Assembly: GCF_045679555.1 (NCBI RefSeq)
Contig: NC_092087.1
Location: 83,068,098-83,132,097 of the forward strand
Length of the DNA: 64,000 nt
Direction: 5' to 3'
From: Salvelinus alpinus
Lineage: Eukaryota > Chordata > Actinopteri > Salmoniformes > Salmonidae
Position 1 is the stretch's first letter, and each line of letters opens with the position of its first letter. The notes under the pieces were generated by a model. It worked only from the letters and a program-made list of their open reading frames with translations, had not been told where the DNA came from and did no database searches. Positions 47,182 to 50,100 of this stretch are shown here, one piece after another. The position numbers were made by a program, and so were the translations under genes.

Positions 47182-50100
47182 TCAATGCTTGTGTCTGAAC
47201 ATAGCCTCCACTGCAAAACACAAACACGAGGTCAGACGTTAATAAACACTTTATAACCAAACAGTAACAGCAATATATGTTTATAAACCCTTTATAAATA
47301 GTAAAAAATGGTCCTCTCTTACTGGAGTCCTCCTGAGGGGACATCGGTATGCTTATAAACACACATAGATGTTAATAAACCCTTTATAAACCCTTAATAA
47401 GAGGTTGTAATCTCTTACTGGAGTCCTCCTGAGGGGACATCGGTATGCTTATAAACACACATAGATGTTAATAAACCCTTTATAAACCCTTAATAAGAGG
47501 TTGTAATCTCTTACTGGAGTCCTCCTGAGGGGACATCGGTATGCTTATAAACACACATAGATGTTAATAAACCCTTTATAAACCCTTAATAAGAGGTTGT
47601 AATCTCTTACTGGAGTCCTCCTGAGGGGACATCGGTATGCTTATAAACACACATAGATGTTAATAAACCCTTTATAAACCCTTAATAAGAGGTTGTAATC
47701 TCTTACTGGAGTCCTCCTGAGGGGACATCGGTATGCTTATAAACACACATAGATGTTAATAAACCCTTTATAAACCCTTAATAAGAGGTTGTAATCTCTT
47801 ACTGGAGTCCTCCTGAGGGGACATCGGTATGCTTATAAACACACATAGATGTTAATAAACCCTTTATAAACCCTTAATAAGAGGTTGTAATCTCTTACTG
47901 GAGTCCTCCTGAGGGGACATCGGTATGCTTATAAACACACATAGATGTTAATAAACCCTTTATAAACCCTTAATAAGAGGTTGTAATCTCTTACTGGAGT
48001 ACTCCTGAGGGGACATCTGGATGCTGATGACATCATTGAAGTGTTTCAGCCAATCCTGTTGCTCAACTTCCGTCTCGCAGGTAAACAGGAAGCTGCGCTC
48101 GGGTGTTACTATGGTGATGCCGTGTTGCCAGGCGCCGTTGCAGTGGGTTCCGGCGGGAAGGCCGGGGCTAGCGCTGTAACCATGGTTCTGGTGCCCTAGG
48201 AAAGCCTCACCCTTGGCAAAGGCATCCTGGCAAGGTAGGGGAGGGAGGGGAGGTAGAGGGGGTGAGGTGAGAGTGAGGTAGAGGGGGTGAGGTGAGAGTG
48301 AGGTAGAGGGGGTGAGGTGAGAGTGAGGTAGAGGAGGTGAGGTGAGAGTGAGGTAGGGGAGGGAGTGTGAGGTAGAGAGGGTGAGGTGAGAGTGAGGTAG
48401 AGAGGGTGAGGTGAGAGTGAGGTAGGAGACAGAGGGTGAGGTAGAGGGGGTGAGGTGAGAGTGGGTGAGGTGAGAGTGAGGTAGGGGAGGGAGTGTGAGG
48501 TAGAGAGGGTGAGGTGAGAGTGAGGTAGAGGAGATGAGAGTGAGGTAGGAGACAGAGGGTGAGGTAGAGGGGGTGAGGTGAGAGTGAGGTAGAGTGGGTG
48601 AGGTGAGAGTGAGGTAGGGGAGGGAGGGTGAGGTAGAGGGGGTGAGAGTGCAGTAGAGGGGGTGAGGTGAGTGTGAGGTAGGGTGAGGTAGACAGGGTGA
48701 GGCAGAGGGGGTGAGGATGAGGTAGAGGGGGTGAGGTGAGGGTGAGAGCCTTAAGATCCCTGGTCAAAAGTAGTGCACTATAAAGGGAATAGGGGTCCAT
48801 TTAGGATGGAAAAGAAGTCTTCAATCTCTTTATTTCCATAACGGCTCCACACCTCATCCAAGGCCTGTCTATAGCTCTCTGTAACAGCCCCAGTGTGAAC
48901 CCTTGATGAAGGCAGCTTAACTGTCCAAACGATGCTTTATTCAACGTATTGCATATGAGCCTTAAGTGTGAGGCTCCCCTTTTCTCTTCTAAAGTGCACT
49001 AGTGAGCTATTTGATCTGGCCAGGCCTGGCCCTCCCTAGTGCTCCCCTGTGCTTTCCACTTTCCATTGTTGTGTGTGATGATTCAAACCAGGCTAGCACG
49101 CTAAGTAGAGCACGACATCACCCTCATACCAACTCTACACAATCCCCATAGTGTTACATCTAGCCAATACTAGTTGAGAGTTGAGAGAGGGTGGTAGTGA
49201 GTTCTCTGCCTCTTTGGAGTTGTGGTTTGGGGTGTGCGCGCGTGTGTGTGTGCGTGTGTGGTTTGATGGTCTTCTGATAGAAGTATCAGATTACTGTCTA
49301 GCGAGTCTCCTCTACATAGCAGCTCTTTGTTAAAACTAACAGAGAACATGTTGTACTAACCTGATACAGCAAGAGGAAACTTCATCCGTCATTATGAAGT
49401 CAAACCTTTTGATATCAATCAGATTCATATAAAACATGAGGTCCTCTCTAGTAACTGGACTATAAGAGCCCACCTGGGAGAAGTGTGTGTGTGTGTGTGT
49501 GTGTGTGTGTGTGTGTGTGTGTGTGTGTGTGTGTGTGTGTGTGTGTGTGTGTGTGTGTGTGTGTGTGTGTGTGTGTGTGTGTGTGTGTGTGTGTGTGTGT
49601 GAAACCAGTCTTACCAGGGGATCTTTGTAGTACATGAGACGTCTGTGGTCTAGGGTGAACCAACGCTTCTTAAACCCTTCTGTATGCTGCAGAGAGAGAG
49701 AGAGAGACAGAAAGTCAGTATATGTCTGCTGCTCCCCCACTGAGAGATTGTTGTTCTCTGTTTGGCATCAAGGACACACAGCAGGTGTATAGATGGATAA
49801 GCTACCACATAGCAACTGCAGAAGGATAAGACACCACCAGGACTTCTAATGGTAACTACAGAAGGATAAGACACCACCAGGACTTCTAATGGCGACTACA
49901 GAAGGATAAGACACCACCAGGACTTCTAATGGCAACTACAGAAGGATAAGACATCACCAGGACCCCACATAGCAATTACAGAAGGATAAGACACCACCAG
50001 GACTTCTAATGGCAACTACAGAAGGATAAGACACCACCAGGACTTCTAATGGGAACTACAGAAGGATAAGACACCACCAGGACTTCTAATGGCAACTACA

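Follow-up and report, generated by a model that had tools for sequence, protein, structure and literature searches.

The window is a 64,000-nucleotide (nt) stretch of the Salvelinus alpinus genome, at C2:83068098-83132097 in an assembly of 2.37 Gb and 928 contigs. Its minus strand carries an adap1 gene, of which the 3′ part lies within the stretch, and the intron behind the penultimate coding exon of this gene contains an array of 96-bp units, each of which repeats the end of that exon together with its splice donor and the first stretch of the intron. Judged on its anatomical features, the array is a mirage minisatellite and would be a vertebrate example of a class named in amphioxus, where minisatellite-like duplications of exon-intron boundaries are described at either boundary in the Adh3 and globin genes (PMC3087553). 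We consider it likely that the array is a tolerated, nearly neutral by-product of a minisatellite-rich genome, and that the real donor is the one mostly used. The array is not a singular event, as a second one lies in the same gene and others lie elsewhere in the genome.

Anatomy and origin of the 96-bp array

The seven exons upstream of the last coding exon of adap1 were placed by tblastn with human ADAP1 together with splice signals, and once joined they give a frame that stays open through the last coding exon. The last two coding exons, joined (86 amino acids), match the solved human centaurin-alpha-1/ADAP1 at 7.3e-24, which bears out the proposal of a sequence-only reading of this DNA that the array adjoins the penultimate coding exon of adap1; in Pfam these exons reach 22.7 bits for PH, below the cut-off of 25.1. 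From the ADAP1 match, the frame and the splice sites, the penultimate exon spans 232 nt (47995..48226, minus strand, as are all adap1 features below), with the GT of its real donor at 47994-47993, while the last coding segment, TGGAGGCT...CATTGA, was placed by sequence reading and frame at 47182..47210.

Tandem Repeats Finder (TRF), run on the window, reports the array at 47315-48025 with a period of 96, 7.4 copies and a 99% match. Each unit consists of 31 nt of exon end and the donor TCCA/GTAAGA (the slash marking the exon-intron boundary) with 65 nt of intron. The exon's final base is 47995, and the exon-like ends of the seven decoys lie at 47899, 47803, 47707, 47611, 47515, 47419 and 47323, so that the decoy donors are positioned 96 to 672 nt downstream of the real one, each of the seven keeping the core CTCCA/GTAAGA as CTCCA/GTAAGAG. 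The sequence-only reading had described this layout correctly: a unit of exon end, donor and about 60 bp of intron, seven copies with CTCCA/GTAAGA in the following intron, and donors at 47994, 47898 and 47802; unit-by-unit comparison also confirms its remark that the copies share GAC where the real exon has TAC.

Comparison of the copies divides the array into four kinds of segment. The real 31-nt exon end from which the unit derives (eA) occupies 47995..48025 and is followed by the first 65 nt of the intron (iA, 47930..47994), which shows no differences among all seven of its copies. Six 96-bp units (47354..47929, ending at the first six decoy positions), made of a variant exon end (eB) and iA, show no differences from one another. 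A seventh eB (47323..47353) carries the last decoy end and then runs into diverged intron, iB (47211..47322), which forms the remaining 112 nt of the intron, from a diverged relative of iA at its start to the real acceptor TTTTGCAG. Against the six decoy units, the real copy shows differences at 3 of 96 positions (5, 7 and 24, zero-based), all of them exonic, where the real exon reads TAC (Tyr) and ATC-CAG and the decoys read GAC (Asp) and ATA-CCG. With the shared GTAAGAGA excluded, iB aligns to the intron part of the unit in nearly the same register with a local score of 44, which none of 1000 dinucleotide shuffles reaches (best 31).

The order of the segments thus reads eA iA (eB iA)x6 eB iB, with inner units homogenised (six of six identical) while the outer eA and iB differ, and it fits a two-copy ancestor followed by out-of-register amplification of its inner hybrid. 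The exon end, donor and intron start would have been duplicated once in tandem, the two copies would then have diverged to give eA iA eB iB, and the hybrid unit eB+iA would have been amplified later through out-of-register exchange or slippage. Since no divergence is seen inside the array, compared with 3 of 31 positions between eA and eB, the amplification or homogenisation is probably much younger than the first duplication. The suggestion that a variant of the boundary had been amplified therefore stands as far as the shared variant goes, but a simple amplification of a single variant gives way to an old two-copy state with later amplification of the hybrid unit.

Three adap1-like paralogues (on C7, C3 and C1) show 53-54% identity to the window gene in the penultimate exon, and in the same exon they are 76-78% identical to the human ADAP1 sequence, compared with 49% for the window gene. 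At the homologous place each has a single donor (GCAG/GTAAGT, GCAG/GTTAGT and GCAG/GTAACC), and no copy of that boundary was found within 800 nt downstream in any of the three; the C3 intron has a small 28-bp, 2.7-copy array that is without exon sequence. All three read PQEYA, as does human ADAP1, so the ancestral residue at the changed codon was likely Tyr. Over six adap paralogues, none of 47 donors has a copy in the next 800 nt when up to 5 mismatches in 25 are allowed, compared with two of seven in the window gene; the paralogue donors come from exons found by tblastn, choosing the best GT close to where the match ends and dropping one exon with no GT nearby. With the 711-bp array as query, a search of its own genome, which skips very common words, returns two matches, one covering the whole array and one of 81 bases that overlaps the array's own iB end, and in this one assembly it found no second allele.

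Comparison with known systems

The amphioxus mirages of Adh3, the globins BflGb6 and BflGb9 and troponin C, the last being a further case reported in a paper that also likens PGBD5 to mirages (PMC3902484), have the same boundary-spanning form as the adap1 array. Their inner units are likewise homogenised while the ends differ, and two haplotypes of one gene carry 6 and 3 units (PMC3087553). The differences lie in setting, as the mirages described are from cephalochordates, with units of 10 to 160 bp, whereas adap1 is a vertebrate gene with two arrays, read from one assembly. Under the name of mirage we found no vertebrate example, judging by titles and the starts of abstracts with subscription journals mostly outside coverage, and passages of five further papers (PMC5241972, PMC7605655, PMC4039745, PMC2688266, PMC2206037) mention no boundary-spanning minisatellite of the adap1 kind.

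Human minisatellites at exon-intron boundaries are described in genes of segmental duplications, where they are reported to give alternative splicing via novel introns (PMC2812944); these repeats are transcript-supported and variable between paralogues, whereas the adap1 array is known from DNA alone. Intron gain on the Rogers model, as described for the RNA-dependent RNA polymerase (RdRp) gene of potato, proceeds by tandem duplication across an exon-intron boundary, with a new intron detected (PMC4974935). In adap1, an existing intron grows instead, and the acceptor-like CCCCTCAG in each unit is a feature seen only in sequence. A choice between intron-distal and intron-proximal donors is described for DOK7 intron 4, where two sites lie 11 nt apart (PMC5585400), whereas in adap1 a single donor core occurs eight times over 672 nt.

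Boundary arrays elsewhere in adap1 and the genome

The second boundary array of adap1 (58033..58120) is built from the 3′ end of an exon at 58108..58170 that was placed by tblastn and splice signals. This exon ends ACAGGACCCAGG/GTAAGTTAAAACACCCA, and a 29-bp unit with GGC for GGA, a difference common to both decoys, then follows twice, so that the motif ACAGG(A/C)CCCAGG/GTAAGTTAAAACACCCA forms the real donor and decoys ending at 58079 and 58050. If a decoy were used, the reading frame would add VS and then stop, at the third codon of the extension. The donor of this array is strong, with a predicted U1 pairing of -9.5 kcal/mol.

Both arrays lie in repeat-rich DNA. Tandem repeats cover 26,928 of the 64,000 window bases, 42% of the adap1 introns and 75% of the next 10 kb; cover is 3 to 38% in the six paralogue regions, and in eight spot samples it is 0 to 19% in seven and 98% in the eighth. 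We rejected the idea that arrays are drawn to the splice sites of adap1, because proximity does not exceed that in rotation controls (P 0.425 when arrays of any kind lying within 25 nt of such a site are counted; P 0.40 to 0.77 in eight other settings).

Beyond adap1, we surveyed 80 exons, comprising 40 of 96 listed PH-family matches and 40 Ras-family matches taken from the listed part of 160. The exons were picked by hand before their sequence was seen, and so regardless of repeats, roughly in list order, as short open frames with no inner stop, with some fitting rows passed over; Ras picks were matches ending before model position 141. Arrays were sought by a self-similarity scan, which needs no guess at the donor, and by TRF. 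Arrays built from their own boundary were found at five of the 80 exons (one of 40 PH exons, at its 3′ end, and four of 40 Ras exons), or four of 80 without the exon labelled L100, and the exons are not all independent because near-identical paralogue pairs are included. The PH exon (L036, C21), which is GAB-like, has a donor-side array with an 83-bp unit and three decoy donors, two of them intact and the third decayed, seen in a TRF row and by sequence inspection. A KRAS-type exon (L107, G000:C9:23255069-23256001; its best 60 solved matches are all KRas) has a 43-bp unit on the donor side, with seven further TAG/GTGAGC donors and one altered; its close paralogue L106 lacks such an array at the boundary, and its donor runs into GT repeats. 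RAB14 (L097, C18) has two decoys on the donor side, and RAB10 (L112, C27) has an acceptor-side array with a 45-bp unit. L100, a Rab-like exon on C9, has three donor-side decoys that are separated from the exon by other sequence; although its array begins about 170 nt past the match end, it is counted, since exon-end words and GCAGGTCAGTGTGTG occur in every unit. L061 was flagged by the self-similarity scan and rejected as purine-rich with no boundary array. A Rab-like exon, L099 (G000:C6:13302629-13303567), has a 24-bp, 2.3-copy array over its match start, perhaps a duplicated acceptor; it is borderline, was unflagged by the self-similarity scan and stands outside the five.

Random placement of arrays would be expected to give 0.79 crossings on the donor side and 0.87 on the acceptor side in the 80 exons (1.7 of 160 edges). 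TRF arrays cross two donor-side match ends (L097, L107) and two acceptor-side ones (L099, L112), and the L036 array runs over the end of its exon, some 31 nt outside the match. For at least three on the donor side (with L036 counted, 3 of 80) the tail probability is 0.045, and for at least four of 160 it is 0.086. The excess of boundary arrays over a minisatellite birth that is blind to boundaries is at most mild. More striking is that splice sites do not seem to be avoided, since in the survey sample arrays copying them are as frequent as arrays elsewhere, or more so. These spot checks suggest that boundary arrays could be fairly widespread in the genome, and we regard their possible abundance as of more interest than the adap1 case.

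Several other repeats of the window adjoin or resemble coding sequence. Polypyrimidine minisatellites adjoin two adap1 acceptors, at 58686-60325 (1.64 kb, with 46 CTAAC words) and 48250-48746 (0.52 kb), with no AG before the real one; we discarded a special role for this absence of AG, which is a matter of composition since the arrays contain hardly any G (1 in 1641 nt; 7 in 520). On the plus strand, a galectin exon (34462-34580) ends ...TTCAAG and runs straight into some 59 GT units, the first of which serves as the GT of its donor. At 43474-45822 a 30-bp unit is repeated 78 times with a 100% match, and since its length is divisible by 3 the array has several open frames. At 23199-24007 lies a 57-bp minisatellite whose unit is readable as a coding frame, and which may be of mobile-element origin.

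Donor choice, competing explanations and meaning

Use of the decoys would lengthen the 232-nt exon to 328, 424 and so on to 904 nt. The sequence-only reading had anticipated an addition of 96 x n nt with a possible stop, and an in-frame stop is indeed read in all seven products; it is the same stop each time, lying 61, 157 and so on to 637 nt upstream of the last junction. The usual rule for nonsense-mediated decay sets a limit of 50-55 nt. Decoy mRNAs should therefore be open to this decay, the nearest only just. The further idea that the spliceosome must choose one donor among eight equals finds no support in that form, since the core is the same but exon length (232 versus 328-904 nt) and position differ, and since the amphioxus data suggest that regular splicing goes on undisturbed by such arrays (PMC3087553, PMC3902484).

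On the reading that we favour, the 232-nt exon would be defined first, and most transcripts would for that reason be spliced at the real donor, the one proximal to the exon. The decoy product, with 96 x n added nt and an early stop, would be cleared by nonsense-mediated decay or would yield a slightly altered C-terminus, and with products that are decayed or little changed the array would be nearly neutral. Because each unit holds a full exon end and donor, whole units can be gained or lost with the exon left intact. The cause would be the general birth of minisatellites in this genome, and not selection for donors.

Several points weigh against this account. Part of the case for the two-step history comes from an intron that is rich in AT and has an inner motif of 11 bp. 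Which adap1 donor cells use is a matter of prediction, and the real donor has the weakest predicted U1 pairing of the seven adap1 donors (-4.5 kcal/mol; others -4.9 to -10.3), which leaves room for competition; by consensus bases it scores 6 of 9, and another adap1 donor 5. Finally, three donor-side arrays in 80 exons against 0.79 expected (P 0.045) would allow some attraction to donors, a possibility countered by the absence of copies at all 47 donors of the six adap paralogues.

The weak pairing of the real donor also speaks for the best of the alternatives, which is that the array is a tunable switch, in which decoy use would make copy number set the share of transcripts that decay, as a variable-number dial on adap1 output. 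In keeping with this, the donor core is kept in all seven decoys, their stop lies 61-637 nt upstream of the last junction, and in human TERT both splicing and expression are reported to be affected by an intronic 38-bp variable number tandem repeat (VNTR) (PMC11830802). We consider such a switch unlikely, as the identical inner units point to recent turnover and not to conserved function, the paralogues manage without an array, and predicted accessibility singles out no donor (9-mer unpaired 0.0011 to 0.0076 at the eight, with a region median of 0.0060). A donor-hiding hairpin was considered and dropped, because the GUAAGAG/CUCUUAU pairing of a 30-nt piece (-7.1 kcal/mol, z -3.6) falls to a z of only -0.84 in a 66-nt piece; the last decoy is predicted to pair differently (-5.9, z -0.7).

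It is considerably less probable that extra U1 sites hold U1 near the exon end and aid the weak real donor, which would make the array mildly beneficial. The longest donor array of adap1 does lie on the weakest donor, but the second array lies on a strong one. Equally improbable is an assembly artefact in which the copy number or the entire array is wrong. Six identical units are the kind of repeat in which copy-number errors are usual, but the divergence at the ends (eA, iB) is orderly and imperfect-copy boundary arrays recur in unrelated genes; the exact copy number in adap1 is given as assembled. The least plausible proposal treats each unit as a mini-cassette whose branch-like TTTATTAAC, acceptor-like CCCCTCAG and donor, present in that order in every unit, would yield 10-nt micro-exons (GAGGACTCCA), and we give it hardly any weight given the weak pyrimidine tract, an exon of merely 10 nt and the occurrence of CCCCTCAGGAG as ordinary coding sequence within the real exon.

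Whatever the fate of the adap1 decoys, the arrays offer natural graded experiments on spliceosome choice, with near-identical donors of which one is real and two to seven are intact decoys, and with copy-free paralogues as controls for donor choice. More tentatively, and with somewhat less than even confidence, we propose that mirages are pervasive in this genome, affecting several percent of coding exons, including exons of essential genes such as the KRAS-type gene, RAB14 and RAB10, and that splice-site copy number is common, fast-changing and able to tune unproductive splicing. If boundary arrays are as frequent as the small survey indicates, care would be needed with gene models, and with the mapping of RNA-seq reads, in genomes of this type, and variable splice-site copy number would be a testable source of expression variation.
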